This document shows positions 531-18,460 of a stretch of 18,460 nt of DNA, in pieces. Where the stretch lies: the NCBI GenBank assembly GCA_017620455.1, contig JAFZQK010000050.1, positions 1 through 18,460 on the forward strand, read 5' to 3'. The notes under the pieces are model-generated. The model saw only the letters and a program-made list of their open reading frames with translations. It had not been told where the DNA came from and searched no databases. The position numbers were made by a program, and so were the translations under genes. This DNA comes from Clostridia bacterium (GTDB lineage: Bacteria; Bacillota_A; Clostridia; Christensenellales; Aristaeellaceae). Every line of letters starts with the position of its first letter. The first letter of the stretch is position 1.

Positions 531-559
531 ATAATATCCCAGTAAGGAGGTGCGTTTGA

Positions 560-1387: not shown

Positions 1388-1410
1388 ATCAGGAAAAGGA
1401 GCGATCCCAA

Positions 1411-2665: not shown

Positions 2666-2686
2666 CACACAGGGGGAGCAATACCC

Positions 2687-3100
2687 ATGGCTCGTAAAGC
2701 GGCACGGGCGGCAGCCGTGCAGATGGCATATGAACACATGCTGGGCGGCGCCGGCGGGGATGAAACGCTGCGCGGCCTGATCGAATTTACGCCGGAGGAA
2801 GAGGACCGGGCCTATATCGACGGCATCCTGTCCGGGGTGTCCGCCCACGCGGAGGAGCTGGACGAATCCATCGCCGCCTGCTTAAAGGGCTGGACGCTGG
2901 AGAGGATCGCCCGGGTGGACCTGGCGGTGCTCCGGGTGGCCGCCTATGAGCTTTGCTATCTCCGGGAAACGCCGGACGCCGTGGTGATCAACGAGGCGGT
3001 GGCCCTGGCCCAGCGCTTCGATTCCCCCACCGCGGGCAAATTCGTCAACGGGGTCCTGGCCACGCTGCTGGCCCGGCGGGATCAGGAGAAAGAAAGCTGA
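2687..3100 (+). CDS. nusB: Transcription antitermination factor NusB
   Basis: This 137-aa all-helical protein has standard NusB length. Visible family features are the N-terminal ARKAARAAAVQMAYEHML, the central WTLERIARVDLAVLRVAAYELCY and the C-terminal PDAVVINEAVALAQRFDSPTAGKFVNGVL, which is highly characteristic. NusB with NusE (S10) binds boxA RNA and supports rRNA transcription antitermination in the cytoplasm. The start at 2687 follows GGGGGAG (2672-2678). The stop codon shares one base with the next start (TGATG), so the M22-like gene is probably translationally coupled. The link of nusB with the Asp23 module and xseA/xseB/ispA is common in Clostridia. Confidence 0.95.
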   Translation: MARKAARAAAVQMAYEHMLGGAGGDETLRGLIEFTPEEEDRAYIDGILSGVSAHAEELDESIAACLKGWTLERIARVDLAVLRVAAYELCYLRETPDAVVINEAVALAQRFDSPTAGKFVNGVLATLLARRDQEKES

Positions 3101-4056
3101 TGCTGGCCCTGGGGCTGGATACCAGCTGCTACACCACCTCCTGCGCCCTGTGCGCGCCGGGGGGCGAGCCCGTGCAGGCGCGGCGGCTTCTGCCCGTGCC
3201 CGCGGGAGAACGCGGCCTTCGCCAAAGCGAGGCCGTGTTTGCGCATGTAAGGCAGCTGGGAGAAATGCTCCCGCGGCTGATGGAGAACGCCCCGGAGCCC
3301 GTTTCCTGCGTCTGCGCCTCCGCCGCCCCCCGGGACGGGGAGGACAGCTACATGCCCGTGTTCCAGGTGGGGCTGTCCCAGGGCCGGGGCATCGCCGCGG
3401 CGCTGGGCGTTCCCTTTTTCAGCACCACCCACCAGCGGGGCCATCTCGCCGCCGCCCTGTACGGATCCGGGCTGAGGGAAAAATCCTTTTTGGCACTGCA
3501 TCTCTCCGGCGGCACCACGGACGTGCTGCTGGCGCGGGGGGAGGAAATCACGCTCCTGGGAACGTCGCTGGATCTGCACGCGGGCCAGCTGGTGGACCGG
3601 ATCGGGGTGAAAATGGGGCTCCCCTTCCCCGCGGGGCCTTTTCTGGAGGAGCTGGCGCGCAAGGGCGTATGCGGAAACGCCGTGCCCGTCAGCATGGAGG
3701 GGCTCAGCTGCCACCTGTCCGGCGCGGAAGCGCGGCTTTTGCGCATGCTGGACGCCGGCGAAAGAAAGGAAAACGCGGCGGCGGAGGTCTATGGCGTGCT
3801 GTGCCGCACGGTGCTTAGGCTGCTGGAAGCGGCGGCGGATGAAACCGGCGTCAGCGACGCGCTGCTGTTCGGCGGGGTGATCTCCTCCGCGCTGCTCCGG
3901 GAAATGCTCCTGGACAGGAACGAAAAGCGCCGGACCGGCCTGAAAATGCACTTCGGGCGGAAAGAGTATTCCGGCGACAACGCGGTGGGCGTGGCGCTCA
4001 TCGGCTTACAGCGATTGGAAAAGGAGAAAGCACATGGCGATTTTGATGGACGGTAA
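3100..4056 (+). CDS. TsaD/Kae1-like (peptidase M22 family) protein, clostridial paralogue
   Basis: This 318-aa ASKHA-fold protein starts LALGLDTSCYTTSCAL, where true TsaD usually has GIETSCDET. The metal-binding pair is present as HQRGH (His111 and His115), in the same spacing as the TsaD HxxxH. The third ligand is probably Asp293 in YSGDNAVGVALIG. LHLSGGTTDVLL and LFGGVISSALL correspond to nucleotide-binding segments. TsaD makes N6-threonylcarbamoyladenosine in tRNA with TsaB and TsaE. This shorter paralogue, placed between nusB and xseA, is found in Clostridia in addition to canonical TsaD, and its own role is not known to me. The ATG at 3100 overlaps the nusB stop and has AGGAG at 3084-3088; more upstream starts would run deep into nusB. 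The end overlaps folD by 23 bp. Confidence 0.8.
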   Translation: MLALGLDTSCYTTSCALCAPGGEPVQARRLLPVPAGERGLRQSEAVFAHVRQLGEMLPRLMENAPEPVSCVCASAAPRDGEDSYMPVFQVGLSQGRGIAAALGVPFFSTTHQRGHLAAALYGSGLREKSFLALHLSGGTTDVLLARGEEITLLGTSLDLHAGQLVDRIGVKMGLPFPAGPFLEELARKGVCGNAVPVSMEGLSCHLSGAEARLLRMLDAGERKENAAAEVYGVLCRTVLRLLEAAADETGVSDALLFGGVISSALLREMLLDRNEKRRTGLKMHFGRKEYSGDNAVGVALIGLQRLEKEKAHGDFDGR

Positions 4057-4879
4057 AGCCCTGGCGGCGGAAAAAATGGAGGAGCTCAGGCAGCGCACGG
4101 AGGCATTGAAGGCCCGGGGCGTGACGCCGGGCCTTTCGGTGATCCTGGTGGGCGAGGACCCTGCCAGCCAGGTGTACGTGCGCAACAAGGGCCGCGCCTG
4201 CGAGGAGCTGGGCTTCTATTCCCGGACCATCCGCATGCCGGAGGAAACCACCCAGGCGGAGCTGGAACACCAGATCGACGAATTGAACGCCGACAGCCGG
4301 GTGGACGGCATCCTGGTGCAGCTGCCCCTGCCCCGGCATCTGGACGAAGCCGCCGCCCTGCGCCGCATCCGCCCGGAAAAGGACGTGGACGGCTTTCACG
4401 TGGAAAACGCGGGCAGGCTGTTCACCGGCCAGGACGGGGTGGTGGCCTGCACCCCCAAGGGCATCCTGTACATGCTCAAAAAAAGCGGCGTTCCCCTCTC
4501 CGGGAAGGACGCCGTGGTGATCGGGCGCAGCAACATCGTGGGAAAGCCCGTCGCAATGCTGCTGCTGAATGAAAACTGCACCGTCACCCTCTGCCATTCC
4601 CGCACCGCCGACCTCGCGGCCCACACCCGCCGGGCTGACGTGCTGGTGGCCGCGGTGGGCAGGCCCCGGTTCGTCACCGCCGATATGGTGAAGCCCGGCG
4701 CCGCCGTGGTGGACGTGGGCATCAACCGGGTGGACGGCAAGGTAGTGGGCGACGTGGATTTTGCCGCCGTGGAGCCCGTGGCGGGCTGGATCTCCCCCGT
4801 GCCCGGCGGCGTGGGCAAAATGACCATCTGCATGCTGATGGAAAACACCCTGGAAGCCGCGGAAAAAAGGAGCCGCTGA
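4034..4879 (+). CDS. folD: Bifunctional methylenetetrahydrofolate dehydrogenase/cyclohydrolase FolD
   Basis: At 281 aa this is the normal length. FolD interconverts 5,10-methylene-THF, methenyl-THF and 10-formyl-THF in the cytoplasm, normally using NADP. The catalytic YVRNK motif is present (Tyr48, Lys52), as are QLPLPRHL, the DVDGFHVEN loop, the Rossmann segment VVIGRSNIVGKPVAMLLL and the C-terminal PGGVG motif. The latter reads PGGVGKMT, with Lys262 where most FolD proteins have Pro. The ATG at 4034 follows AAGGAG (4021-4026) and lies inside the end of the M22-like gene, so coupling is likely. The gene sits beside xseA, an arrangement known in other Firmicutes. Confidence 0.95.
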   Translation: MAILMDGKALAAEKMEELRQRTEALKARGVTPGLSVILVGEDPASQVYVRNKGRACEELGFYSRTIRMPEETTQAELEHQIDELNADSRVDGILVQLPLPRHLDEAAALRRIRPEKDVDGFHVENAGRLFTGQDGVVACTPKGILYMLKKSGVPLSGKDAVVIGRSNIVGKPVAMLLLNENCTVTLCHSRTADLAAHTRRADVLVAAVGRPRFVTADMVKPGAAVVDVGINRVDGKVVGDVDFAAVEPVAGWISPVPGGVGKMTICMLMENTLEAAEKRSR

Positions 4880-4882
4880 GCC

Positions 4883-6106
4883 ATGCCCTGGACGCTGACC
4901 GTTTCGGAACTGAATGATTACGTGCGCCGCGCCCTGGCCAGCGACCCGTCACTGCGCTTTCTTTCCCTGCGCGGCGAGGTCAGCGATTTCAAGAAATATA
5001 CCTCCGGCCACTGGTATTTTACCCTGAAGGACGAAGCCTGCACCATCCAGTGCGTCTGTTTCCGGCAGTACAATATGCGCCTGGATTTCCGCCCGGAAAA
5101 CGGAATGAAAGTGGTGCTCACCGGAGCCGTGGGGCTGTACGCCGAGCGGGGCAGCTACCAGTTTTACGCCGATAGCATCACCCGGGACGGGGTGGGCGAC
5201 CTGTATCTGAAGCTGGAGCAGCTCAAGGCCCGGCTGATGAAGGAAGGGCTCTTCGACGTGGCGAAGAAGCGCCCCCTCCCCCTGCTTCCCCGGGCCATCG
5301 GCGTGGTCACCAGCCGCAGCGGCGCGGTGATCCACGATATCGCCACCGTCACCCGCCGGCGCTATCCCGCCATGCAGATCATCCTGCGGCCCGCCCAGGT
5401 GCAGGGCGAAGGCGCGGCGGAGGACATTGCCCGGGGCATCGCGGAAATATCGCTGCTGCCCCAGGTGGACGTGGTCATCGTGGGCCGGGGCGGCGGATCG
5501 CTGGAGGACCTGTGGGCCTTCAACGAGGAGATCGTGGTGCGCGCCATCGCCGCCTGCCCGGTGCCGGTGGTCAGCGCCGTGGGACACGAGGTGGACGTGA
5601 CGCTTTCCGATCTGGCGGCGGACGTCCGGGCCGCAACGCCCTCCGTGGCCGCGGAGGTCTGCGTGCCGGAAAGGGACGCGCTGCTGGCCGCCGTCGAAAA
5701 GATGCGCCGGGAAATGGGCAAAGCGTGCGTCGGCCGCCTGCTGGCGCTTAAGAACCGCACCGCGTACCTGGAAAAGCGCCTGGCCGCCTGCCATCCAGCG
5801 GCGCAGCTGCAGCGCATGAGCGCCCAGGCCGGATTGCTTGCCCAGCGGCTGCGCGCCGCCATGGAAAAAGGCATGACCGCCCGGCAAACCCGGCTGCAGC
5901 TGCTGCGCAATCAGCTCGCCGCCCTGGGCCCCCGGCAGGCGCTGGAAAGGGGCTACGCGGTGGTTTTATCCGGCCGGGACGCCGTCACCAGCGTATCCCA
6001 GGTCAAGGATGAAATGTCTCTGCTCATGCGGGACGGGCGCGTGCGCGTCAGGACCCTGGAGGTGCGAAAGGAGGATCCCTTTGGCGAAGAAGCAAGCGAG
6101 CTTTGA
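4883..6106 (+). CDS. xseA: Exodeoxyribonuclease VII large subunit
   Basis: The product has 407 aa, close to family size. It has an N-terminal OB-fold (about residues 1-105: LRGEVSDFKKYTSGHWYFTLKD), the catalytic domain (IGVVTSRSGAVIHDI, VDVVIVGRGGGSLEDLWAFNEE, GHEVDVTLSDLAADVRAATPS) and a long helical C-terminal region, rich in Leu, Arg and Gln, that binds XseB copies. Exonuclease VII degrades single-stranded DNA in both directions and acts in repair. The ATG at 4883 begins 4 bp after the folD stop, with AAGGAG within the last folD codons. The final 26 bp overlap xseB, which fits co-production of the two subunits. Confidence 0.95.
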   Translation: MPWTLTVSELNDYVRRALASDPSLRFLSLRGEVSDFKKYTSGHWYFTLKDEACTIQCVCFRQYNMRLDFRPENGMKVVLTGAVGLYAERGSYQFYADSITRDGVGDLYLKLEQLKARLMKEGLFDVAKKRPLPLLPRAIGVVTSRSGAVIHDIATVTRRRYPAMQIILRPAQVQGEGAAEDIARGIAEISLLPQVDVVIVGRGGGSLEDLWAFNEEIVVRAIAACPVPVVSAVGHEVDVTLSDLAADVRAATPSVAAEVCVPERDALLAAVEKMRREMGKACVGRLLALKNRTAYLEKRLAACHPAAQLQRMSAQAGLLAQRLRAAMEKGMTARQTRLQLLRNQLAALGPRQALERGYAVVLSGRDAVTSVSQVKDEMSLLMRDGRVRVRTLEVRKEDPFGEEASEL

Positions 6107-6299
6107 GGACAAGCTCACCGAACTGGAGGAAATGATCCGCAAAATGGAAGGGGGCAGCCTGCCCCTGGACGAAACGCTGAAATGCTACGAGGCGGGCATC
6201 AAACTGTCCCGGGAGCTGACGGCGGAGCTGAACGCGGCGGAAAAGAAAATGCAGGAGCTCTCCGCCGGGGAACTGACCGAAATGGAGGACGCACCGTGA
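6081..6299 (+). CDS. xseB: Exodeoxyribonuclease VII small subunit
   Basis: This 72-aa helical protein carries the XseB signature SFEDKLTELEEMIRKMEGG and the LPLDETLKCYEAGIKLSREL segment. A TTG start at 6081 is chosen because AAAGGAGG (6067-6074) lies 6 bp upstream and it gives the standard size. The only in-frame ATG upstream (6009) would add 24 residues unlike the family and overlap deep into xseA. Several XseB copies bind one XseA to form the active enzyme. The stop overlaps the next start by 4 bp (GTGA). Confidence 0.93.
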   Translation: MAKKQASFEDKLTELEEMIRKMEGGSLPLDETLKCYEAGIKLSRELTAELNAAEKKMQELSAGELTEMEDAP

Positions 6300-7159
6300 G
6301 CGATACCGTTCTTGCGCCGTATAAAAAGCGGCTGGAAGCCTATCTGGACGGGCTGCCCATGGCCGGCGCGCCGGAGCCCCTGCGCTCCGCCATGCGCTAC
6401 AGCCTGCTCTCCGGCGGGAAGCGGCTGCGGGGATGCCTGACCCTGATCGCCTGCGAAACCGCGGGCGGCGCCGCGGAGGACGCCCTGCCCTTCGCCGCGG
6501 CCCTGGAAATGATCCACGCCTATTCCCTGATCCACGACGATCTGCCCGCCATGGACAACGACACCCTGCGCCGGGGCAAGCCCACCAACCACGTGGTTTA
6601 CGGGGAAGCGGTGGCCATCCTGGCCGGGGACGGGCTGCTGACCCATGCCTTTGAGCTCATGGCCTCCTCCCCCCATCCCCGGGCCTTCCGGGCCCTGGGC
6701 GAGATCGCCCGGGCAGCGGGGATCGGGGGCATGCTGGCCGGCCAGGCCCTGGACGTGACGCTGGAGGGCGCCCGGTCGGAAAAAGCCGTGGTGGAGCAGA
6801 TCCACCGGGGCAAGACCGCCGCGCTGCTCACCGCCCCCGTCACCGCCGGGCTGATCCTGGGCGTCGCCACGGAAGAGGAGATCGCCGCGGGCCGGGAATA
6901 CGGGCTGCATCTGGGCATCGCGTTCCAGATCGTGGACGATCTGCTGGACCTGGAGGGCGACGCCGCCCTCATGGGCAAGACCCTGGGCAAGGACCTGCAG
7001 GAAGGCAAGCTGACCTGGCCCGCCTGCGTGGGCGTTGCGCAGGCCCGGCTGGACGCCGCCGCCCACACCGACGCGGCGCTCCGCGCTCTTTCTCCCTTCG
7101 GCGTCCGCGGGGATGCGCTGCGCGCCGTCGCCGCGGCCATTCTGAAACGCAATCAATGA
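6296..7159 (+). CDS. ispA: Polyprenyl synthetase family protein, probable farnesyl/geranylgeranyl diphosphate synthase
   Basis: This 287-aa short-chain E-type prenyltransferase condenses isopentenyl diphosphate with allylic diphosphates. The first aspartate-rich motif is DDLPAMDND (residues 81-89, followed by LRRGKPTNH) and the second is DDLLD (214-218). SGGKRLRG and GMLAGQALDV are the usual diphosphate-binding and helix segments. A GTG start at 6296 is inferred from TGGAGG at 6283-6288, from the 4-bp overlap with xseB and from the normal N-terminus it gives. In many Firmicutes dxs follows ispA in this cluster; here it does not. Chain length (C15 or C20) cannot be fixed from sequence reading alone. 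Confidence 0.92.
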   Translation: MSDTVLAPYKKRLEAYLDGLPMAGAPEPLRSAMRYSLLSGGKRLRGCLTLIACETAGGAAEDALPFAAALEMIHAYSLIHDDLPAMDNDTLRRGKPTNHVVYGEAVAILAGDGLLTHAFELMASSPHPRAFRALGEIARAAGIGGMLAGQALDVTLEGARSEKAVVEQIHRGKTAALLTAPVTAGLILGVATEEEIAAGREYGLHLGIAFQIVDDLLDLEGDAALMGKTLGKDLQEGKLTWPACVGVAQARLDAAAHTDAALRALSPFGVRGDALRAVAAAILKRNQ

Positions 7160-7181
7160 TTTTTTCCGGGAGGGATTTTTT

Positions 7182-7742
7182 ATGACGGATCAATTCAAGG
7201 AAGAAGTGGTCACCAAGCGCAATCAGGGGGCGCAAACCGCCCTGTTCGTGCTGGCTAACGTGCTGATGGTGGCCTCGGGGCTCCTGGCGCTGATCAATTT
7301 CACGTCCGTGACCGGCGCGCTGCGCATGACCGGCTTTTCCCAGGATTTCTTCTTCTATCTCGTGATTTTCCTGCTCTTCGCCGCCACCACCGCGGGCTTG
7401 TATTTCTACCGCGACCGGATCAGGATGGAATACGAATACACCCTCACCAACACCCAGATGGATTTCGCCCAGGTGTTCAACAATAAAAAGCGTAAGTCCC
7501 TGGGCACCATGAACATCAAAAACGTGGAGGCCTGCGGCCTGGTGTCCTCCGGCTCCTTCCATCGGTACATCAGCATGCAGGGCATCAAGCGCAGCAACTG
7601 GTTTTTGAACCGGGACGCCGAATTGTTCTACTTCTTCTTCCAGAAAAACGGGGAAAAGCGCATCATCGTCATCGAGCCCAGCGAGGAAATGCGCGGGATG
7701 ATCAAAAAAAGCGTTCCCCAGGGCGTCTGGCAGAACAACTGA
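7182..7742 (+). CDS. Small two-helix membrane protein, DUF6106-like
   Basis: The protein has 186 aa. A short polar N-terminus is followed by two transmembrane helices at about residues 20-42 and 56-76. A soluble C-terminal domain of about 110 residues then begins YFYRDRIRMEYEYTLTNTQMDF and contains KRKSLGTMNIKNVEACGLV and a Phe-rich strand, ELFYFFFQKNG. The topology and the EYEYTLTN start recall clostridial DUF6106 proteins and, more loosely, membrane-attached PH-like domains; this is recognition from memory and not a firm match. The ATG at 7182 has a good GGGAGGG upstream. It lies between ispA and the desulfurase on the same strand with short gaps, so it is probably co-transcribed. Function is unknown. 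Confidence 0.7.
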   Translation: MTDQFKEEVVTKRNQGAQTALFVLANVLMVASGLLALINFTSVTGALRMTGFSQDFFFYLVIFLLFAATTAGLYFYRDRIRMEYEYTLTNTQMDFAQVFNNKKRKSLGTMNIKNVEACGLVSSGSFHRYISMQGIKRSNWFLNRDAELFYFFFQKNGEKRIIVIEPSEEMRGMIKKSVPQGVWQNN

Positions 7743-7775
7743 CCGATTTTTCAATCGTTGAAAGGCTTATTTCCG

Positions 7776-8912
7776 ATGTCGATCTATCTGGACAACAGCG
7801 CCACCACCCGGCCCTGCGAGGCCGCCGTGGCGGCCGTGACGGCGTGCATGCGGGAGGAATACTACAATCCCTCCGCCCTATACGCCCCCGCCCTGCAGAC
7901 GGGCAAAATGCTGCGGGATTGCCGGGATGAGATCCTCCGCGCGGTCCACGCGCCCATGGGGGCCCGGGTGACGTTCTTATCCGGCGGCACCGAGGCGGAC
8001 AACCTGGCCATCCTGGGCCGGGCGGCGAAATGCCGCAGCGGGAAGGTGCTGTATTCCGCCGGGGAGCATCCCGCCGTGAAGGAAGCCTGCCAGCATTGCG
8101 GCCTTCCGGCAGAGGAGATTCCCTATACCGCCCAGGGCATCGCGGATCTGGACGCCCTGCGGGAAATGCTCACGGGCGATACGGCGCTGATCTGCTGCAT
8201 GCAGGTGAACAACGAAACCGGGGCCGTCCAGCCCATCCGGGAGATCGCCGCGCTGCGGGACCGGTTGGCTCCCGGCGCGCTTTTCCACGTGGACGGGGTG
8301 CAGGGCTTCCTGCGCGTGCCCTTCGATATGGCTGCCGCGGGCGCGGACACCTACGCCCTGTCCGGCCATAAGATCCACGCGCCCAAGGGCATCGGCGCGC
8401 TGGTCATGACGGCCCGGGTGCAGTTGAGCCCCCGGCAGGTAGGCGGCGGCCAGGAATCCGGCCTGCGCTCCGGCACGGAAAACACCCCGGGCATCGCGGG
8501 GCTGCTGGCGGCCATACGGGCCTTCCCCCGGGATCATCACCTGCGGGAAACCAAAGCGTACCTGTGGGAAAAGCTGCGGGAGGCGGTGCCGAAGGCCGCC
8601 GTCAACGGCCCCCCGCCGGAAAGCGAAGCGTCCGCCCCCCACATCCTGAATGTATCCCTGCCCCCGGTCCGGTCCGAAACCATGCTGCACGCCCTGGAGG
8701 GCGAAGGCATTTACGTGGGCATGGGCTCCGCCTGCTCCTCCTTCAAGCAGCGGGTCAGCCCGGTGCTCAAGGCCATGCACGTGCCCCCGGCCCTGGCGGA
8801 ATCCGCCCTGCGCTTTTCCCTGTGCCCGGAAAACACCCGGGAGGAAATGGAGCGGGCCGCGGCGGCCGTGGCGCGGCAGTACGCCGTTTTATCCAAATTT
8901 CAACGCAGATAA
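7776..8912 (+). CDS. Cysteine desulfurase (NifS/IscS family)
   Basis: This 378-aa PLP enzyme (class V aminotransferase fold) moves sulfur from cysteine to acceptors as a persulfide. Visible motifs are YLDNSATTRP at the N-terminus, LSGGTEADN and GEHPAV in the cofactor site, the Schiff-base lysine in LSGHKIHAPKG (Lys199), and the catalytic cysteine in MGSACSS (Cys320). The ATG at 7776 gives the standard MSIYLDNSATT start and has a modest GAAAGG about 10 bp upstream. An in-frame TTG at 7758 would add six residues and has no good ribosome binding site. The direct neighbour thiI implies that it supplies sulfur for 4-thiouridine in tRNA, like NifZ with ThiI in Bacillus. A general Fe-S role remains possible. 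Confidence 0.93.
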   Translation: MSIYLDNSATTRPCEAAVAAVTACMREEYYNPSALYAPALQTGKMLRDCRDEILRAVHAPMGARVTFLSGGTEADNLAILGRAAKCRSGKVLYSAGEHPAVKEACQHCGLPAEEIPYTAQGIADLDALREMLTGDTALICCMQVNNETGAVQPIREIAALRDRLAPGALFHVDGVQGFLRVPFDMAAAGADTYALSGHKIHAPKGIGALVMTARVQLSPRQVGGGQESGLRSGTENTPGIAGLLAAIRAFPRDHHLRETKAYLWEKLREAVPKAAVNGPPPESEASAPHILNVSLPPVRSETMLHALEGEGIYVGMGSACSSFKQRVSPVLKAMHVPPALAESALRFSLCPENTREEMERAAAAVARQYAVLSKFQRR

Positions 8913-8925
8913 GGAGATCCGTTTC

Positions 8926-10074
8926 ATGCGAAAGCTGCTGATGGTACGGTACGGTGAGATATATCTGAAGGGCCTGAACCGGCCTTATTTCCTGCGGGCC
9001 TTGGTGCAGCGGGTGCGGGAGGCGGCAAAGCCCTTCGGCGCCCAGGTCTGGCTGCACGACGCCCGGGTGTTCCTGAGCGGCATGGAGGACATGGAGGGCT
9101 GCATGCAGCGGGTGGCGAAGGTGTTCGGCGTTCATTCCGTCGCCCCGGCCATCGAAATGGACAAGGACGATTTCGAGGGCATCTGCCGGCAGGCGGACGA
9201 ATTGATGCAGGGGCTTTCCGGCACCTTCAAGGTGGAGGCCCGCCGGGCGGACAAGCATTATTTCCTGGATTCCCCCCAGATCAACGCCAAGGTGGGCGAA
9301 TACGTGCTCATGCGCAATGAAGACCGTTTGAAGGTGGACGTAAGGCATCCGGAGCATGTGCTTTCCATCGAGATCCGGGATCAGGCCTATCTGTACTGCC
9401 GGGTGTATCCCGCCGTGGGCGGCATGCCCGTTGGCACCGGCGGCAAGGCGGCCCTGCTGCTCTCCGGCGGCATCGACAGCCCCGTGGCGGGCTACATGAT
9501 CGCCAAGCGCGGGGTGCAGCTGGTGGCGGTGCATTTTCATTCCTTCCCTTACACCAGCGAATTCGCCAAGCAGAAGGTGCTGGATCTGGCGAAGATCCTT
9601 TCCGAATACTGCTGCGGCATCCGGGTGTACGTGGTGCCCTTCACCGAGATCCAGATGCAGATCCACGAAAAATGCCCCGAGGATTATACCACGCTGATCA
9701 TGCGCCGGTACATGATGCGCATTGCCGAAAAGATCGCCCGGAAGGAAGAGGCGCTGGCGCTGATCACCGGCGAATCCGTGGGCCAGGTGGCCAGCCAGAC
9801 CATCGAAGCCCTGGTGACCACCAACGAGGTGGTGACGCTGCCCGTGTTCCGGCCCCTGATCGGCTTTGACAAAATCGACATCATGGAATACGCGAAAAAA
9901 ATCGGCACCTACGATACCTCCATCCTCCCCTACGAGGACTGCTGCACCGTCTTTACCCCCCGCCATCCGGCCACGAAGCCCAAGGAGGCCCTGATCGAAA
10001 AGGGCGAAGGGGCGCTGGATCAGGAAATGCTGATCCAAACGGCGCTGGACAATGCCGAGATCGTAGAGCTGTAA
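8926..10074 (+). CDS. thiI: tRNA sulfurtransferase ThiI (4-thiouridine synthase)
   Basis: The product has 382 aa. It has an N-terminal ferredoxin-like and THUMP region (MVRYGEIYLKGLNRPYF at the start, then a THUMP domain to about residue 165) and a PP-loop ATPase domain with SGGIDS at 180-185. ITGESVGQVASQT and EDCCTVFTPRHP are typical of the family. It adenylates U8 of tRNA and replaces oxygen with sulfur. There is no C-terminal rhodanese domain, as in Bacillus ThiI, so sulfur must be passed from the desulfurase by another cysteine. The ATG at 8926 has AAGGAG (8911-8916), which overlaps the stop codon of the desulfurase gene. Confidence 0.95.
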   Translation: MRKLLMVRYGEIYLKGLNRPYFLRALVQRVREAAKPFGAQVWLHDARVFLSGMEDMEGCMQRVAKVFGVHSVAPAIEMDKDDFEGICRQADELMQGLSGTFKVEARRADKHYFLDSPQINAKVGEYVLMRNEDRLKVDVRHPEHVLSIEIRDQAYLYCRVYPAVGGMPVGTGGKAALLLSGGIDSPVAGYMIAKRGVQLVAVHFHSFPYTSEFAKQKVLDLAKILSEYCCGIRVYVVPFTEIQMQIHEKCPEDYTTLIMRRYMMRIAEKIARKEEALALITGESVGQVASQTIEALVTTNEVVTLPVFRPLIGFDKIDIMEYAKKIGTYDTSILPYEDCCTVFTPRHPATKPKEALIEKGEGALDQEMLIQTALDNAEIVEL

Positions 10075-10120
10075 CCCCGGAGCATACAAATCATATTTCC
10101 GCGGAAGGAGGCCGTCGCGC

Positions 10121-12184
10121 TTGCAGCAGACCCAGGAAAAACACCGGGCCCACAGCGCCCTGCGCAGCTTCATGACCATCGGCACGCTGTACTCGTTCTT
10201 GTACTGCATGCTGGCGTCCAACGTGATCCTGTCCATGCCCATTCTGGGCGGCGCCCTGTACCTGGCCGGCCGCACGGCGGCGATGTTCGTGTCCTTCCGG
10301 CGTCCCAGCCAGGAGGGCGTGTTCACCAAGGGCGCCCGCCGGCTGGGCACGGGGCTTCTGGTGCTGCTGTTCCTGCTGCTGCTGGCGCTGATGACCGTGT
10401 ATCCCATCAGCCTCACCAACGCCGATTTCTGGCGGCTTTCCGGCATCGTGCTGTGCATCATCCTGCGCCCCAGCCTCACCCGCTATGTACTGGAGCGCGC
10501 CTTGATCGCCCATAAAAAAACCATGAAGATCCTGCTGCGCATCCTGGGGGTGCAGCTTTTGTTCCTGCCTCCGCTGCTGCTGATGCTGCTGCTCAGCCCC
10601 ATGGACCGCTTAACCGTCTGGGCCCTGCTCGGCGGGTATCTGCTCAGCGGCATCCTGGAATCCTTCCCCCTGGACCGGATGCGGGACCGGATGCGCCCCT
10701 TTTCCGACGAGGACCGGCGGGAAATGGAATGTCTGCGCCAGGCCCACGCCTACCGCATCTTCCAGGACGTGCTGCTGGTGATCGCCGCCGCGCTGCAGAT
10801 CACCCAGGTGATGGCCTATACCTATATCGCCGTCACCGCCGACGCGCTGATATTGTGCATGGCCATCGCGCTGCTGTGCACCTATGCGGCCAGCGCCCTG
10901 GCGGACACGGTGCTGCGCCGCTCCCGGGCAAGGAACAGCGACCCCAATTTCCTGATAATGCTGGGGCTGGTGCTGTGGCTGTACGGGCTGATCCTCTTTA
11001 TCCGGGCGCTGAATACCCCGGGCATGGTGGAGGAATACCTGTCCCTGGCGCTGTGCACCGTGGGCGCGACGGTCTGCGTGCGCGCCGCCGTGGAAATGGA
11101 GCAGGATATGCGCCGGGTGGCCGCCTTCGCCATCGGCCACGACCCCGGCGAAAACCTGAATCCGGCCCAGCAGGCCCGGGTGGATTTCGCCGCCCTGATC
11201 GGCCAGATGGTGGCGCTGCTGGGGCTGACGCTGATCTGCATTTTCACGCCCACCGATTTCCCCGACGACTGGAACGCACTGTTCCTGTCCTTCAGCCCGC
11301 TTTTGACGCTGCCCGCCCTTTCGCTGGTCATCGCCGCCATGGTGTTTTTCCTGCTCTTCCCCCTCACCCGCCAGCATCTGCAGAAGCTGCGCAAGTATTC
11401 CGATATGCAGCGGGAAGGGCGGAGCAACGGCCCGCTGCACGATCAGCTGGAGGCCGTGGTGGTGCAAAGGAGCCTGAAGCATTACGGCATCAAGCTGATC
11501 CTGCTGATCCTGCGGCCGCTGTACCGGCATAAGATCCTGGGCAGGGAAAACCTGCGCCTGGACGAGGATACCCCCTGCGTGTTCGTATGCAATCACGGGG
11601 AGATCTACGGCCCGGTGGTGGCCACGCTGTACGTGCCCTATTCCTTCCGGCCCTGGGTGGCTTCCGAAATGACCGACAAGCAGGTGGTCATCGACCACAC
11701 CATGGACGGCGCCTTCGGGAAGTACACCGGCTGGAAGCGGAAAACGCTGCATTTCCTCATGGTGCATATCGGCGCGCCGTTCCTCACCTGGGTGATGCGC
11801 TCGGTGGACTGTATCCCCGTCTATCACGACAATCCCCGCAAGCTGATGCAGACCTTCCGGGATACCATCGCCGCCATGGAGGCGGGGGACAATATCCTGC
11901 TTTTCCCCGAAAACGCCGCCACCGCCGCCGATCACAAGTACGTGAAGGAAGGCGTGTCCGAGTTTTTCACGGGCTTTACCATGATCGGCCAGCTCTACAG
12001 TCAGAAAACCGGGAAATGCCCCCTGTTCGTGCCGCTGTACGCCAATAAAAAGGAACGCACCATCACCTTCGGCGTGCCCACCCGCTATGACAGCGCCGTT
12101 TCCCCCAACGAGGAAAAGGAGCGCCTGTGCACGTACCTGCGGGGCGAAATGCTGCGCATCGCGGGGCTGAAGGAGGAAGGGTGA
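10121..12184 (+). CDS. Multi-pass membrane protein with C-terminal PlsC-like acyltransferase domain
   Basis: The product has 687 aa. About ten hydrophobic helices fill residues 15-425 (for example GTGLLVLLFLLLLALMTVYP and LLGLTLICIFTP). From about residue 470 a soluble domain resembles 1-acylglycerol-3-phosphate acyltransferases: CNHGEIYGP (His492), RSVDCIPVYHDNPRKL, and LLFPENAAT (FPEN 595-598, where PlsC has FPEG). The usual HxxxxD motif reads HGEIYG, so the catalytic Asp is Gly497; activity is uncertain. The N-terminal half could be a transporter or flippase-like part, as in LplT-Aas fusions, but it is not recognisably MFS. The TTG start at 10121 is supported by GGAAGGAGG (10103-10111); no nearby ATG is as well placed. 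It is the last gene of the series and ends 20 bp before a strong terminator. Its substrate is unknown. Confidence 0.75.
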   Translation: MQQTQEKHRAHSALRSFMTIGTLYSFLYCMLASNVILSMPILGGALYLAGRTAAMFVSFRRPSQEGVFTKGARRLGTGLLVLLFLLLLALMTVYPISLTNADFWRLSGIVLCIILRPSLTRYVLERALIAHKKTMKILLRILGVQLLFLPPLLLMLLLSPMDRLTVWALLGGYLLSGILESFPLDRMRDRMRPFSDEDRREMECLRQAHAYRIFQDVLLVIAAALQITQVMAYTYIAVTADALILCMAIALLCTYAASALADTVLRRSRARNSDPNFLIMLGLVLWLYGLILFIRALNTPGMVEEYLSLALCTVGATVCVRAAVEMEQDMRRVAAFAIGHDPGENLNPAQQARVDFAALIGQMVALLGLTLICIFTPTDFPDDWNALFLSFSPLLTLPALSLVIAAMVFFLLFPLTRQHLQKLRKYSDMQREGRSNGPLHDQLEAVVVQRSLKHYGIKLILLILRPLYRHKILGRENLRLDEDTPCVFVCNHGEIYGPVVATLYVPYSFRPWVASEMTDKQVVIDHTMDGAFGKYTGWKRKTLHFLMVHIGAPFLTWVMRSVDCIPVYHDNPRKLMQTFRDTIAAMEAGDNILLFPENAATAADHKYVKEGVSEFFTGFTMIGQLYSQKTGKCPLFVPLYANKKERTITFGVPTRYDSAVSPNEEKERLCTYLRGEMLRIAGLKEEG

Positions 12185-12204
12185 TCCCGCGCGATCCATG
12201 CGGC

Positions 12205-12241
12205 AAAGCCCGCCGGAAACGCACGTTTTCCGGCGGGCTTT
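12205..12241 (+). terminator. Intrinsic terminator after the PlsC-like gene
   Basis: A perfect 15-bp stem (12205-12219 paired with 12227-12241, core AAGCCCGCCGGAAA) has a 7-nt loop. The T-rich end of the stem runs on to 12243 and TTTT follows after GCG. It closes the long + strand gene series. The minus-strand operon ends 18 bp further on, so it may also slow transcripts coming from the other side, though its T-run on that strand is only three bases. Confidence 0.9.
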
Positions 12242-12258
12242 TTGCGTTTTTATTCAAA

Positions 12259-12783
12259 TCACACCAGTGAAAACACCGCTACATCCTCGGCGTCCTCGTA
12301 GCTGCTGTCCTTCTCCCCGTTCGGAACAAAGCCGAAGGAGGCGTACAGATGCTTTGCGGCTTCATTGTTCCCGTCGTAGGACGTGCTCCAGGCATCTTCT
12401 TTCCCGTCGGGGAACGTCCGCACATAGTCAAGGAGCAGCTTCAATGCGTCCCTCCCCAGGCCCTTGCCCTGATATCTCTGGTCGATCATAAACCGCCAAA
12501 GATAATAGCTGTGCCTGTAGACTTCCGCCATGCCCTCATATTCTTCGGACCGATGCCCGATCATGGCAAATCCCACCGGCGTGTCCCCGTCGTAGATGCC
12601 GAAGCACTGCACGAATCTGCCGCTGGCAAGCACAGCGTATGCCTGCGCCATGCTCACCGTGTTCGACGCCACATACCCCTTCTGCGATTCGGCGGTTTCA
12701 AGTTCCATCAAATCCACAAAGTTGTCATCATTGACTTTTACCAGTCGGATGGCTTTGTTTTTTATTGCTTGGCTGACTGTCAT
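12259..12783 (-). CDS. GNAT family N-acetyltransferase, BltD/PaiA-like (possible polyamine acetyltransferase)
   Basis: The product has 174 aa. The acetyl-CoA binding motif A is clear: LWRFMIDQRYQGKGLGRDALKLLLDYV, with RYQGKG at residues 103-108. NNEAAKHLYASFGFVPNGE is motif B. The order of IRLVKVNDDNF, YVASNTVSMAQA, PVGFAMIGH and the motifs resembles Bacillus BltD, a spermine/spermidine acetyltransferase; this is similarity by eye only. The ATG at 12783 gives a normal GNAT start and has AGGGG upstream. The frame stays open far upstream but only through the ABC gene in another frame. Only 59 bp, without terminator or clear promoter, separate it from the ABC exporter gene upstream, so it is probably the last gene of that operon. 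Drug or polyamine modification would fit beside an exporter. Confidence 0.85.
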   Translation of the reverse strand: MTVSQAIKNKAIRLVKVNDDNFVDLMELETAESQKGYVASNTVSMAQAYAVLASGRFVQCFGIYDGDTPVGFAMIGHRSEEYEGMAEVYRHSYYLWRFMIDQRYQGKGLGRDALKLLLDYVRTFPDGKEDAWSTSYDGNNEAAKHLYASFGFVPNGEKDSSYEDAEDVAVFSLV

Positions 12784-12842
12784 TTTTCCATTTCCCCTTG
12801 AATAGCGATTTGTTGGTCCCCCATCAGCATGCCATGTTCGTA

Positions 12843-14699
12843 TTACGCGGGCGTTTCCTCGGCCTTGCCCAGCACGTCCATGGTGCTTTCCTCCCGGAAC
12901 TGGTTGGTATACAGCTTGTAATACGCGCCCTTTTTCCGGATCAGTTCCTGGTGCGTGCCCATTTCCTGGATCCTTCCGTCGTCGATCACCAGGATGCGGT
13001 CCGCGGTGCGGACGGTGGACAGCCGGTGGGCGATGATGAAGGACGTGCGCCCGGAAAGCACCTTCTGAATGGCCTGCTGGATGATCTGCTCCGTCTGGGT
13101 GTCCACGGAGGAGGTGGCTTCGTCCAGCACGAAGATCCGGGGATCCGCCAGGATGGCCCGGGCGAAGGAGATCAGCTGCTTTTCGCCGGTGGACAGGCGG
13201 CTGCCGCCCTCGCCCACGTCGGTATCGTAGCCCTTCTTCATTTTCAGGATGAAGCTCTCCGCGTTCACCAGCTGCGCGGCCTGCTCCACCTCCTCGTCGG
13301 AGGCGTCCAGCCGGCCGTAGCGGATGTTGTCCCGGACGGTGCCGGAAAACAAACGCGGTTCCTGCAGAACGTATCCCAGGCTGCTCTGCAGCCACAGCTG
13401 GCTGCGCTCCCGGTAGTTCACGCCGTCGATGAGGATCTCGCCCTTTGTGGGCTCATAGAACCGGCAGATCAGGTTTACCACCGTGGATTTTCCCGCCCCG
13501 GTGGGGCCCACCAGCGCGACGGTCTCCCCCGCGTTGATTTTCAGGTTGAAATCGGTGAGCACCTGCTCCCCTTCCTTGTAGCGGAAATCCACGTGACGGA
13601 ATTCCACCTCGCCCCGCAGCGCGGGCCAGTTTTCCTTCTTCGGGTGGAAATTGTCGCCGTATTCCGCTTCCACCTCCGGGGTGTCCACGATGTCCGGCTC
13701 CGTTTCCAGCAAGGTCACCACCCGCTCCGCCGCGGCCTGGGCGCTCTGCATTTCGGAGAACACGCCGGCGATGTTGCGGATGGGCTCGAAAAACTGCACG
13801 GTATAGTTGATGAACACCTGCAGAACGCCCAGGGTCATGCCCCCGATGAGCACCTCCTGCCCGCCCTTCCACAGGGCGTAGGCGGTGGCGATGGAGCCCA
13901 GGGCCACCACGATGGGCAGAAACGCCGCCGAAAGGGACGCCGCCCGGACGGAGGAACGCTTCATTTCGTGGGTCAGTTCGGTGAATTCCGCGGTGTTCCT
14001 TTCCTCCAGCACCAACGTCTTGGTGGTTTTCGCCCCCATGATGCCTTCGTTGAACGCCCCGGTGATCTGGCTGTTGGTTTTGCGCACCGTGCGGTAGGCC
14101 CGGAGGATCTTCTGCTGGAATGCCCAGGAAACCAGCGCCAGCGGCGGCACCACCAGCAGCACCACCAGCGTCATTTTCCAGTTGAGCAGGAACATCGTCA
14201 CGCTGCTGGCCACGATCATCACCGCGCCCCAGGCCAGATCCAGCAGGCTCCAGCCGATGGTCTCCCCCAGGCGCTGGGTGTCGCTGGTCATGCGGCTCAT
14301 CAGGTATCCCACGGGCATCCGGTCATAGTAGGAAAAGGGCAGCTCCTGCAGCTTGCGGAAGGCCCGTTTGCGGATGGTGTAGCATACCCCCACCTCGATC
14401 TTGCCGCCCAGGTACAGAAAGCGGTAAATGCTGACCACCTGCACCGCCAGCACCAAAGCGTACACGGCGATAAAGAGGGGCAGCCCCTCGGTGCCGCCGG
14501 GGCGGTCCAGATTGGGCACGAAATGGTCGATGGCGTAGCTGGTCAGCAGCGGGAACACCACGTCGCACGCCGCGGTGACGCCCATCACCAGCATCAGCCG
14601 GACCAGGTCCTTATAATATTCCCTGGCATAGCGCAGGAGCTTTTTCCACAGCGTCAGGGAAAACCGCTGGGTATAATCCCGCTCCTCAATTTGCTGCAT
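12843..14699 (-). CDS. ABC exporter half-transporter, canonical-site subunit (BmrD-like)
   Basis: This 618-aa type IV ABC exporter half has six transmembrane helices (about residues 25-320) and a C-terminal ATPase domain. Walker A is GPTGAGKST (398-406), the signature is LSTGEKQLISFARAIL, and Walker B is FVLDEATSSVD with catalytic Glu527. The H-loop is FIIAHRLSTV. The signature reads LSTGE and not LSGGQ, which fits a heterodimer in which this signature faces the partner's degenerate site. The start at 14699 (MQQIEERDYTQ) is chosen because GAGGAG lies about 10 bp upstream and it overlaps the upstream gene by only 14 bp; an in-frame ATG at 14777 has no such site. Probable role: multidrug or lipid export with the next protein. 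Substrate unknown. Confidence 0.93.
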   Translation of the reverse strand: MQQIEERDYTQRFSLTLWKKLLRYAREYYKDLVRLMLVMGVTAACDVVFPLLTSYAIDHFVPNLDRPGGTEGLPLFIAVYALVLAVQVVSIYRFLYLGGKIEVGVCYTIRKRAFRKLQELPFSYYDRMPVGYLMSRMTSDTQRLGETIGWSLLDLAWGAVMIVASSVTMFLLNWKMTLVVLLVVPPLALVSWAFQQKILRAYRTVRKTNSQITGAFNEGIMGAKTTKTLVLEERNTAEFTELTHEMKRSSVRAASLSAAFLPIVVALGSIATAYALWKGGQEVLIGGMTLGVLQVFINYTVQFFEPIRNIAGVFSEMQSAQAAAERVVTLLETEPDIVDTPEVEAEYGDNFHPKKENWPALRGEVEFRHVDFRYKEGEQVLTDFNLKINAGETVALVGPTGAGKSTVVNLICRFYEPTKGEILIDGVNYRERSQLWLQSSLGYVLQEPRLFSGTVRDNIRYGRLDASDEEVEQAAQLVNAESFILKMKKGYDTDVGEGGSRLSTGEKQLISFARAILADPRIFVLDEATSSVDTQTEQIIQQAIQKVLSGRTSFIIAHRLSTVRTADRILVIDDGRIQEMGTHQELIRKKGAYYKLYTNQFREESTMDVLGKAEETPA

Positions 14700-16509
14700 A
14701 AGCCGTATTCTCCTCTTTGAATTCGTCCTCCAGATCGCTCTGGATGCGGAAGATCCGCTGATAAAGCCCATCCTCACGGATCAGCTCCGCGTGGGTGCCC
14801 TGCTGGGTGATCCGCCCGTCCTCCAGCACCAGGATCCGGTCCGCCTGGCTCAGCGTCACGATCCGGTGGCTGATGATCAGGGTGGTCACGCCCTGCTTGC
14901 GTTCCTTCAGGGCCTCGCGGATCCGGGCGTCCGTTTCCGTGTCCACGGCGGAGAGGGAATCGTCGAAGATCAGGATGTCGCTGTCCTTCATCAACGTCCG
15001 GGCGATGGCGACGCGCTGCTTCTGCCCGCCGCTGAGGGTCACGCCCCGTTCGCCCACCACCGTGTCGTAGCCCTTTTCGCTGTCTTCGATGAATTCTTTG
15101 GCCGCCGCGTCGGTCACCGCCCGGTCGATTTCCGCGTCCGTGGCGTTCGGCGATGCGATGGTCACGTTTTCCTTCAGGGTTTTGGAATACAGGAAGGGCT
15201 CCTGCAGGATCAGGCCCACCCGGGAGCGCAGGTATTTCCGGTCGATCCGGCTGATGGGCGTTTCCCCGATGCGGATCTCCCCGTTCTTCACGTCGAACAG
15301 CCGCTGCAGCAGGTGCACCAGGGTGGATTTCCCGCTGCCGGTGGCGCCCAGGATGGCCACCGTTTTGCCCGCGGGGATGGTGAAGCTCATGTCCCGGAGC
15401 ACCGGATGGCTTTCGTCATAGCCGAAGGTGACCCGGTCGAACACGATATCCCCCCGGAGGGAGGGCTTCAGCGCGTCCTTTTCCTCCGGCTCTTCCTTTT
15501 CGCGCATCACCTCGTCGATGCGCTCCATGGCCACGCTGCTTTTCCCGGCGTCGCTGAGGATGCGCCCCAGCTGACGGATGGGAAAGAGCAGCTTCCAGAT
15601 ATACGAGGTAAAAATGATCAGCGTGCCCACCGTGATTTCCCCGCGGACGGCGAAGAAAACGCAGGCCAGCAGCGTCATCATGCTCTGCACCATGCTGATC
15701 AGGTCGCCCGTGGCCCAGTAGACCGCCAGCAGCACGCAGATGCGGAAGCTCTTCTTTTTATAATCGCCGCTGACGGCTTCGAACTTCTCCACCTCGTGCT
15801 CCTGCTGCCCGAAGGCGCGCACCACGCGCACCCCGGTGAGGTTCTCCTGCAGCACGGCGCTCATCTTTCCTTCCGCTTCGTCCGCCAGCCGGAAGGATTT
15901 CACCACCCACCGGAAGAACAGCCACGCGAACAGGAACAGCGCCGGCACCATCACCATGCTGATGAGGGCGATTTTCGCGTTTTCCCGGAACAGGTAAAAC
16001 ACCGCGAAGGCCACCATCATCAGCGCGTTGGCCACCTGCATCAGCTGCATGGACAGGAAGCGGCGCACCGTTTCCACGTCGCTGGTGCAGCGCTGCACCA
16101 GATCGCCGGTCTCCGCCTTCACGTGATAGGCGAAGGGCAGGTTCTGAATGTGGGTATACAGCCTTTCCCGCAGCGACAGGCTCACGTTCTCCCCGGCGAT
16201 GGACTGCAGCCTGCCCTTCCCGAAGTTGAACGCGCCGCCCACCACGTTGAGGATCACCAGCGCCAATCCCGCGATCCACAAATTTTTCGCCATGAATCCC
16301 GGCCCGCCCAGGCTGTCCACCCAGGCGTTCACGAAGCCCGGCATGCGGCTGGGCTTGCCCTGCAGATAATAATCCAGCGTTTCCGCCAGCACGATGGGCG
16401 TCAGGTATTCGATCACCACGGTGAACACCGTGAAAACCAGCGCCCAGAAAAAATACCGTCCGTTCTCCCGGACCAGCCTGGCCAGCAGGCCGATTGTCCG
16501 CCTGTTCAT
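14686..16509 (-). CDS. ABC exporter half-transporter, degenerate-site subunit (BmrC-like)
   Basis: This 607-aa ABC exporter half has six transmembrane helices in the first ~320 residues and an ATPase domain. Walker A is GATGSGKST (388-396), the signature is LSGGQKQRVAIARTLM, and Walker B is ILIFDDSLSAVD, with Asp517 where active ABC proteins have Glu. The H-loop histidine is kept (LIISHRIVTL). This Asp is the hallmark of the non-catalytic half of heterodimeric exporters such as BmrC of BmrCD and TM287 of TM287/288. The ATG at 16509 follows GGGAGGA (16516-16522) at 6 bp; in-frame ATGs further upstream (to 16557) fall in the attenuator hairpin and lack a site. It is the first structural gene behind the leader peptide and attenuator. 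Confidence 0.93.
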   Translation of the reverse strand: MNRRTIGLLARLVRENGRYFFWALVFTVFTVVIEYLTPIVLAETLDYYLQGKPSRMPGFVNAWVDSLGGPGFMAKNLWIAGLALVILNVVGGAFNFGKGRLQSIAGENVSLSLRERLYTHIQNLPFAYHVKAETGDLVQRCTSDVETVRRFLSMQLMQVANALMMVAFAVFYLFRENAKIALISMVMVPALFLFAWLFFRWVVKSFRLADEAEGKMSAVLQENLTGVRVVRAFGQQEHEVEKFEAVSGDYKKKSFRICVLLAVYWATGDLISMVQSMMTLLACVFFAVRGEITVGTLIIFTSYIWKLLFPIRQLGRILSDAGKSSVAMERIDEVMREKEEPEEKDALKPSLRGDIVFDRVTFGYDESHPVLRDMSFTIPAGKTVAILGATGSGKSTLVHLLQRLFDVKNGEIRIGETPISRIDRKYLRSRVGLILQEPFLYSKTLKENVTIASPNATDAEIDRAVTDAAAKEFIEDSEKGYDTVVGERGVTLSGGQKQRVAIARTLMKDSDILIFDDSLSAVDTETDARIREALKERKQGVTTLIISHRIVTLSQADRILVLEDGRITQQGTHAELIREDGLYQRIFRIQSDLEDEFKEENTAYAAN

Positions 16510-16530
16510 AAAAATTCCTCCCGAAATCAT

Positions 16531-16569
16531 AGAAAAACAGCCACCGCCCGTTTTCACGGCCGATGGCTG
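16531..16569 (-). terminator. Intrinsic terminator in the leader of the ABC exporter operon (attenuator)
   Basis: On the minus strand, 16556-16569 (CAGCCATCGGCCGT) pairs with 16538-16551 (ACGGGCGGTGGCTG) around a GAAA tetraloop. The 14-bp stem has one G-U pair and one G-G mismatch and is followed by five T (16533-16537). It lies 22 bp before the first ABC gene, after a promoter and a short translated frame, so transcription must pass it to reach the exporter genes. The + strand shows no T-run. That it regulates is inference from position and from the alternative pairing described in the findings. Confidence 0.8.
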
Positions 16570-16575
16570 CTTAGA

Positions 16576-16602
16576 TCGCGCTGCTATGTCAAAGCTGCGC
16601 GA
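16576..16602 (-). promoter_or_regulatory. Hairpin over the leader peptide stop codon
   Basis: TCGCGC (minus strand, 16597-16602) is complementary to GCGCGA (16576-16581). The 15-nt loop holds the leader stop codon, and two more inner base pairs are possible after an A-A mismatch. The hairpin nests inside the proposed antiterminator pairing, so a ribosome at the end of the leader would open it. Confidence 0.5.
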
Positions 16603-16681
16603 ACCTCATTCGGCCGCAAAAATGCACAGAAATATCCCGTCCTGCAAAGGGAATAAGCGTCATTGCGTAGGTTTTCAGCAT
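16589..16681 (-). CDS. 30-aa leader peptide upstream of the ABC exporter operon
   Basis: A 30-codon frame starts with ATG at 16681, 8 bp after AAAGGAGG (16690-16697), one of the best ribosome binding sites in the window. It begins MLKTYAMTLIPFAG and ends CGRMRFAQL before TGA. It starts about 27 nt after the expected transcription start and ends 20 bp before the attenuator stem. The peptide has no recognisable domain. Its size, position and strong initiation signal fit a regulatory leader peptide such as bmrB ahead of bmrCD, where ribosome stalling by translation inhibitors allows readthrough. Translation and regulation are inferred; the frame, binding site and promoter are seen directly. Confidence 0.75.
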   Translation of the reverse strand: MLKTYAMTLIPFAGRDISVHFCGRMRFAQL

Positions 16682-16714
16682 TCCTGCGGCCTCCTTTCTT
16701 CAAAATTCGTTATC

Positions 16715-16743
16715 AGTATAACCAGCCGCCCGGAAATTGTCAA
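16715..16743 (-). promoter_or_regulatory. Sigma-A promoter of the leader peptide-ABC exporter operon
   Basis: On the minus strand -35 TTGACA (16738-16743) and -10 TATACT (16715-16720) are separated by exactly 17 bp; only one base departs from consensus. Just upstream (about 16760-16790) lie several A-tracts in phase with a possible UP element. The predicted start is near 16708. Such a strong promoter ahead of an attenuator is the usual design when control acts after initiation. Confidence 0.88.
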
Positions 16744-16751
16744 CCCTGTAA

Positions 16752-18272
<1,521 letters not shown>

Positions 18273-18304
18273 TGCAGGCATAAAAACAGCATATCTATTT
18301 TAAG

Positions 18305-18344
18305 GGGATCTCGCTTTGCCGGCCAAAGCGAGGTTCCTTTTTTT
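18305..18344 (+). terminator. Intrinsic terminator of gdhA
   Basis: A 14-bp stem (18305-18318 with 18324-18337; two G-U pairs) has a CCGGC loop and is followed by seven T (18338-18344). It lies 32 bp after the gdhA stop. Confidence 0.92.
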
Positions 18345-18368
18345 GCGCCGTTTCTTTTCTATTCCGCT

Positions 18369-18460
18369 CTATTCTGCCGATGCATCAAGATCATCCGTCT
18401 GCGCGCCGATGGGGCATGTAAATATGAAGGCGGACATCCATGCGTCGATGGCGGCCTGCC
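18369..18460 (-). CDS. Possible 3' end of a minus-strand gene (partial)
   Basis: On the minus strand one frame is open from the window edge to a TAG at 18369-18371 and reads QAAIDAWMSAFIF and then ASAE at the end. The 29 codons look protein-like, but they are too few to name a family. On the + strand a short frame starting at the ATG at 18425 runs off the edge but has no clear ribosome binding site. This is a weak call. Confidence 0.25.
   Translation of the reverse strand, partial: QAAIDAWMSAFIFTCPIGAQTDDLDASAE

Follow-up and report, generated by a model that had tools for sequence, protein, structure and literature searches.

The window analyzed here is an 18,460-nucleotide stretch of a Clostridia bacterium assembly (contig JAFZQK010000050.1, positions 1 to 18,460), whose minus strand carries, between a promoter and the first of two genes for an ABC exporter, a leader with a short open reading frame (ORF). 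Comparison with relatives indicates that this leader probably controls a heterodimeric ABC exporter operon by ribosome-mediated transcription attenuation. It is predicted to proceed through three mutually exclusive pairings, an anti-antiterminator (1:2), an antiterminator (2:3), and an intrinsic terminator (3:4). The original prediction, a leader-peptide attenuator ahead of an ABC exporter operon, is supported by the comparative evidence as the best reading; its two exclusive folds, terminator and antiterminator, are retained, but it had missed a third partner, region 1 (16686-16691), which pairs with codons 22-24 of the leader. Taken alone, the complementarities of the window are marginal, the 7-nt match of regions 2 and 3 being reached by 287 of 5000 shuffled sequences and the other 7-nt match by 269 of 5000, and comparison with relatives was therefore needed.

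Pairing in Loci Found through the Exporter

The decisive test used loci found through the exporter alone. To escape the bias of selection by sequence, the exporter was searched in 91 genomes (13 + 78) outside the matches of R1, a covariance model of the leader 5' half, and the upstream DNA of 41 loci was read (11 of 15 loci in the 13-genome part). A leader, defined by rule as a ribosome site, a start codon, and an ORF of 14-75 codons, was present in 32 of these 41, namely in 31 of the 35 with an exporter at least 50% identical and in 1 of the 6 at 44% or less. The last of these (L116) has another leader type and was dropped; L127, in which no terminator was found, was dropped from the 2:3 test.

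Regions 1-3 are often rewritten yet complementary in these relatives. L112 has GGGTCGCAAA as region 1, TTTGCGACCC as region 2, and CGGTCGCA as region 3; the arms of L114 are built on TCGGAT, ATCCGA, and TCGGAT; L113 shows, by eye, one additional base in each arm of 1:2; and in the 2:3 pairing of L125, CTGCGTAT stands against ATACGCAG. When partners were re-paired among loci 20,000 times, the true 1:2 pairs had a mean energy of −15.65 kcal/mol versus −12.31 for re-paired partners (n = 31, z −7.6), and the true 2:3 pairs −14.40 versus −11.24 kcal/mol (n = 30, z −6.1); none of the 20,000 permutations was as good for either pairing, nor was any when near relatives were left out (n = 23 and 22, respectively). 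True partners paired better than expected in 29 of 31 loci for 1:2 and in 24 of 30 for 2:3. Because the true pairings surpass every re-pairing in loci found through the exporter, both 1:2 and 2:3 have been selected, and the covariation that the original prediction asked for is present in these loci, although not in the columns of other alignments (see below). The predicted antiterminator, exclusive with the terminator, is conserved in the relatives and weak in one subgroup.

Reading Frame and Position of the Stop Codon

The leader is open past region 2 in all 49 elements compared (the window included), where mononucleotide shuffling leads to an expectation of 16.6; the ORF starts of 13 of these leaders were set by hand. 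Region 2 is in frame 0 in 12 elements, in frame 1 in 18, and in frame 2 in 19, and at least 13 changes of frame are needed on a quick tree of the exporter proteins, which holds 48 of the 49 rows (L005 being left out) and has some long branches. Since all three frames are used, with at least 13 changes among them, yet every leader is open, region 2 appears to be selected as RNA and not as peptide. The stop codon follows region 2 by 5-42 nt in 49 of 49 elements and by 13 or 14 nt in 20. The leaders of L103 and L109 are counted in the ORF set and the tree and their terminators in no count; in L109, no terminator was found within 300 nt. Relatives thus keep the arrangement expected of an attenuator, an ORF held open with its ribosome site overlapping the switch, and homologous loci that had lost both the frame and the complementary segments, the outcome named beforehand as contrary to the prediction, were not what was found: homologues keep both. 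At the level of sequence, comparison shows that the pairings of arms 1, 2, and 3 and an open frame with its stop beyond region 2 have been kept by selection.

Conservation of the peptide, also suggested as a check, is lacking in the 3' half of the leader in both sequence and frame, so that a stall peptide there is unlikely, whereas the 5' half gives no more than a hint of coding constraint, with early leader codons perhaps mattering somewhat. Words resembling NR[LV][NQY] near codons 4-9 recur, by eye, in L040, L047, L052, L018, L044, L073, L080, and others, and possibly represent a stall word or shared descent; the leader of the window is without such a word.

The Leader of the Window

The features of the window are collected in Table 1. 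The near-consensus promoter and, on re-reading of the minus strand, the 30-codon frame with its strong ribosome site were confirmed, and the segments CGGCCGA (16610-16616) and TCGGCCG are complementary exactly as claimed. The terminator, described as a 14-bp hairpin with a U-run, does have 14 positions in each arm (16556-16569 with 16538-16551), a GAAA loop, and U5 at 16533-16537, but 13 positions pair (one as G-U) and one is a G-G mismatch. It lies between the promoter and the first structural gene, whose ATG is at 16509, as in an attenuator, and the RNA between promoter and terminator end would be about 175 nt. Folding, another check that had been proposed, gave a minimum free energy (MFE) of −75.6 kcal/mol for a 184-nt leader, more stable than all of 200 dinucleotide shuffles (z −5.1). 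The MFE fold contains the 1:2 pairing, in which region 1, between the ribosome site and the start codon, pairs with 16612-16624 over 13 bp and encloses the start codon, and also the stop-codon hairpin P2, which in the alternative fold would be nested in the antiterminator as anticipated. Among 24 alignment rows, 23 have AAAGG[AG]GG as Shine-Dalgarno sequence and the remaining row starts GAAGG; a comparable −35/−10 region was seen in the printed upstream sequences of relatives.

Table 1. Features on the minus strand of the window, with the evidence for each
Feature	Position	Strand	Detail or basis
Promoter	16715..16743	−	TTGACA 16738-16743 and TATACT 16715-16720; 17-nt spacer; 11 of 12 consensus letters
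Shine-Dalgarno sequence of leader ORF	16690..16697	−	AAAGGAGG; sequence
Region 1, 5' arm of predicted anti-antiterminator P1	16686..16691	−	GGCCGC; MFE fold, 1:2 pairing tests
P1 5' arm with extension	16679-16691	−	13 bp; MFE fold
Leader ORF, 30 codons and TGA	16681 to 16589	−	MLKTYAMTLIPFAGRDISVHFCGRMRFAQL; sequence; stop 16589-16591
Region 2, P1 3' arm (16612-16624) and predicted antiterminator 5' arm	16612..16617	−	GCGGCC; fold, alignments
P2, stop-codon hairpin, apex of predicted antiterminator 2:3	about 16576..16602	−	MFE fold
Region 3, in terminator 5' arm; partner of region 2	16557..16563	−	TCGGCCG; pairing tests
Intrinsic terminator (3:4) with U5	16533..16569	−	sequence and fold
ABC exporter subunit 1, 607 aa	14686..16509	−	Pfam ABC_membrane and ABC_tran; Walker B FDDS
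ABC exporter subunit 2, 618 aa	12843..14699	−	Walker B LDEATS, signature LSTGEK

Pairing in Elements Found by Sequence

Pairing and folding were also examined in 36 elements found by their own sequence, with 51 other terminators of the same loci as control. A 2:3 duplex of −10 kcal/mol or better is formed in 36 of 36 elements versus 18 of 51 controls, and one of −14 kcal/mol or better in 26 of 36 versus 6 of 51; the pairing extends to at least three loop bases in 27 of 36 versus 12 of 51. When the 5' part is hidden, as it would be by an early ribosome, and the RNA stops short of region 4, the probability of 2:3 exceeds 0.5 in 33 of 36, and in naked full-length RNA that of 1:2 exceeds 0.5 in all 36. 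In 35 of 36, the stability of the P2 segment exceeds the average of its shuffles (mean z −1.80). As separate observations, L087 has a compensatory 1:2 pair (GACCGC/GCGGTC), and the first 230 bases after the element of L107 hold two near-identical tandem terminators, both with an AGGTC able to pair with GACCT of region 2. A subgroup (L087, L096, L099, L100, L102, and L105) keeps the leader ORF and 1:2 and has a terminator weakly complementary to region 2; perhaps it uses another antiterminator.

Relatives Found through the Leader

The leader DNA matches 14 of 200 related genomes, all of one genus, and by eye an exporter starts after each match. A pattern of the 5' half gave 43 stretches in a genome contig collection of 84,980 species. 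In 21 of these, a relative of the exporter lies directly downstream, 45-98% identical to subunit 1; 13 are loci already matched by leader DNA and 8 are new, and all are in metagenome-assembled genomes (MAGs) titled Clostridia, Clostridiales, Christensenellaceae, or Bacillota, several of which name rumen, reticulum, or omasum. Another 21 stretches have none there (18 of them are outside Clostridia), and in the remaining one (L046) the element is at the locus edge; L075, with the same leader and apparently on the same contig, carries the exporter.

In the family, R1 matches 39 of 300 genomes, including 26 of the 29 listed genomes of the same genus, and across the order it matches 9 of 396. Its 35 loci (L058-L092) include 20 that were inspected, 5 of them training rows, while most others repeat leader-DNA loci; seven weak family matches lie outside the inspected set, except those inspected via the order search. 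An exporter, with identity down to 38%, is present at 17 of the 20 (12 of 15 when training rows are excluded); L089, L091, and L092 are false matches. A second such model, R2, has matches in 15 of 103 genomes from another family and in 5 of 391 from the class; 17 of its loci were inspected, and an exporter lies downstream at 15 of them (13 of 15 once training rows are set aside), L106 and L108 being false. Rows dropped from the leader set were L030 (a false match), L046, L093 and L094 (repeats of L015 and L022), and L106 and L108. None of the genomes G009, G013, and G026 is among the R1 matches listed, and their exporters reach 41-42% identity only. The element pattern had no match in viral contigs and the leader DNA none in plasmids; a search of viral contigs for the exporter gave no confirmed match.

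Four loci (L115, L116, L117, and L118) have a different conserved leader, CATCGGAGGGT...GGATA..CAGGTG..TCCTG..terminator, before exporters 41-44% identical to subunit 1. Three of the four have no ORF by the leader rule, none has a match at the Rfam gathering score, and a strict pattern of this leader has no match in 200 genomes of the order. It is possibly an undescribed riboswitch-like attenuator.

Proposed Mechanism and Points against It

In the mechanism proposed for the window, an RNA whose leader is not translated would pair region 1 with region 2 and leave the terminator 3:4 free to form, so that the operon would be off; this default is expected because region 1 overlies the leader ribosome site. 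During normal translation, the ribosome would open 1:2, but by the time 3:4 is formed it would be on region 2, close to the stop codon, or have only just moved off it, and the operon would again be off. If the ribosome instead slows or stalls at the start codon or shortly after it, it would cover region 1 and free region 2. Region 2 could then pair with region 3 while region 4 is still untranscribed, so that 3:4 would be blocked and the polymerase would read into the exporter genes; the exporter would in this way probably be produced only under impaired protein synthesis. The role of the ribosome and kinetic readthrough are inferences.

Several observations weigh against this proposal. Among loci found through the exporter, the rule found no leader in 4 of the 35 relatives that share at least 50% identity (L148 seems to have one by eye), 2 of 31 for 1:2 and 6 of 30 for 2:3 pair no better than average, and in L143 and L150 the best candidate for region 2 shares bases with the stop codon. 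GC-rich control terminators pair fairly well with region 2, as is shown by the 18 of 51 that reach −10 kcal/mol, and foreign arms also give a 2:3 probability above 0.5 in 772 of 1836 trials, while L042, L015, and L087 fall short of that probability with their own arms. In L087, L096, L100, L102, and L105, 2:3 is weak (−5.2 to −11.1 kcal/mol). Naked RNA before region 4 favors 1:2 in 27 of 36 elements only, 2:3 competing without a ribosome in the rest. Once the whole terminator is in place, 2:3 mostly loses at equilibrium even when the 5' part is hidden (median probability 0.001), so that readthrough must be kinetic, decided during transcription. Column covariation in the model-found alignments (A2 and A3) is not above that of shuffles, 185 of 500 of which reach two double-change pairs in one case; these alignments were collected by sequence, which accounts for the lack of excess. 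Finally, the stop codon of the window is 20 nt past region 2, and a terminating ribosome may therefore leave region 2 uncovered.

Alternative Explanations

Drug-dependent arrest by a defined nascent peptide is well known from the erm and msrD leaders, and the first half of the present leader might hold a motif that likewise arrests the ribosome with one cognate drug. This is rather unlikely. The ratio of nonsynonymous to synonymous change (pN/pS) over 13 close pairs is 0.42 in the 5' part, as coding constraint would produce, but the pairs overlap in members, transition bias is uncorrected, and the ratio is 1.23 around region 2. The NR[LV][NQ]-like words of several relatives would fit a stall motif as well, but the word is not in the leader of the window, and the leaders, of 18-57 codons, have by eye no motif common to all loci. 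The ribosome-mediated attenuator could also respond to amino acid starvation, as do those of the trp and his type. The trp leader has the same 1:2/2:3/3:4 topology, but the leader of the window has no run of a single amino acid, none common to the relatives' leaders was seen by eye, and the genes regulated are exporters. In Rfam, the window has no match at the gathering score, and at a relaxed threshold in 16480-16900 there are four sub-threshold matches, none overlapping 16531-16743. A starvation attenuator is accordingly very improbable.

A riboswitch or protein-binding antiterminator, to which the ORF would be incidental, could explain why region 2 is kept as RNA in the sequence-found set and why the fold is stable. 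It would not lead one to expect a frame open past region 2 in every element despite the frame changes, and most of the loop that joins the P1 arms is unconserved in the alignment; relatives L110, L112, and L114, like the window, have no match at the Rfam gathering score. We regard this explanation as improbable. One may also suppose an ordinary constitutive promoter with a partial terminator, complementarity being a by-product of GC-rich DNA, and both the marginal matches of the window and the pairing of background terminators with region 2 are in keeping with that; the absence of any permutation equal to the true partners, for both pairings, makes it scarcely credible. The ribosome-mediated attenuator is the explanation preferred here.

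The Exporter and Its Neighborhood

The start of the subunit 2 gene overlaps the end of the subunit 1 gene. In the Walker B motif of subunit 1, Asp replaces the catalytic Glu, and FDDS in one subunit beside an intact LDEATS in the other, whose signature is LSTGEK, is what heterodimers show when one of their ATP sites is degenerate. From these motifs, the exporter is predicted to be of the two-subunit type with one degenerate site, like the bmrCD product. The sequence matches with solved structures include the YheI and YheH chains (BmrC and BmrD) and TM_0288 with its partner; among the NCBIfam matches listed, no model is above cut-off for either subunit.

An acetyltransferase-like ORF (12259-12783, minus strand) follows the subunit 2 gene by about 60 nt, has sub-cut-off NCBIfam matches only, and is possibly the third gene of the operon; a strong hairpin (12205-12241) lies beyond it. 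Upstream of the promoter are a 451-aa ORF (16926-18281, minus strand) with no Pfam match and, after this ORF, a terminator-like repeat seen by eye near 16842-16877.

Relation to Known Attenuators

The bmrB-bmrCD leader of Bacillus subtilis, for which induction by chloramphenicol, erythromycin, and lincomycin is reported (PMC4191407), resembles the window in having a translated small ORF before a two-subunit multidrug ABC exporter operon, with terminator, antiterminator, and anti-antiterminator alternatives. In bmrB (53 aa), the terminator is inside the ORF, whereas here it follows the stop codon; the anti-antiterminator, whose role in bmrB was called unclear (PMC4191407), spans the ribosome site and start codon in the window. 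The likeness is one of operon kind and architecture. The vmlR leader of B. subtilis likewise has an anti-antiterminator with an upstream ORF (uORF), an antiterminator with an apical hairpin, and an intrinsic terminator, but its uORF is of three codons (Met-Ile-Asn), it controls an ABCF protein and not an exporter, and it has an extra hairpin that sequesters the Shine-Dalgarno sequence; two out of three uORF variants taken from other species bring induction equal to or above that of the native one, and the third gives less (PMC9226507). The element of the window matches vmlR closely in predicted topology and bmrB in the kind of operon, and by the same analogy an antibiotic trigger may be supposed; we infer that ribosome-targeting drugs, perhaps substrates of the exporter, may be the inducers.

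The toiL uORF of Escherichia coli topAI has been put forward as a sensor for several classes of ribosome-targeting antibiotics, as the present switch might be, but acts on a ribosome site and Rho-dependent termination rather than an intrinsic terminator (PMC12121999). The ABC-leaders of Naville and Gautheret (2010) are predicted attenuators before ABC transporters, one of them before a multidrug export operon of lactobacilli; they were found by terminator screening, the examples consulted are from other taxa, and the likeness is one of description (PMC2965389). Among the papers listed by literature searches limited to open-licence articles, none describes the present element or its family.

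Significance

The element brings uncultured Clostridia, mostly of the rumen and known from MAGs, into the range of probable exporter control through ribosome stalling, and offers a clean case of a leader ORF that is seemingly kept for the position of the ribosome and not for its peptide product. We tentatively suggest, as something quite possible, that it belongs to a widespread, undescribed attenuator family of Clostridia that is defined by three-way complementarity and the position of the stop codon rather than by sequence or peptide, and that would sense the progress of the ribosome, responding to whatever inhibitor keeps ribosomes close to the start rather than to a single drug. The signature is free of sequence, consisting of the ribosome site, arms 1, 2, and 3, and the stop position, and suggests a route to switches that are missed by sequence searches and Rfam.
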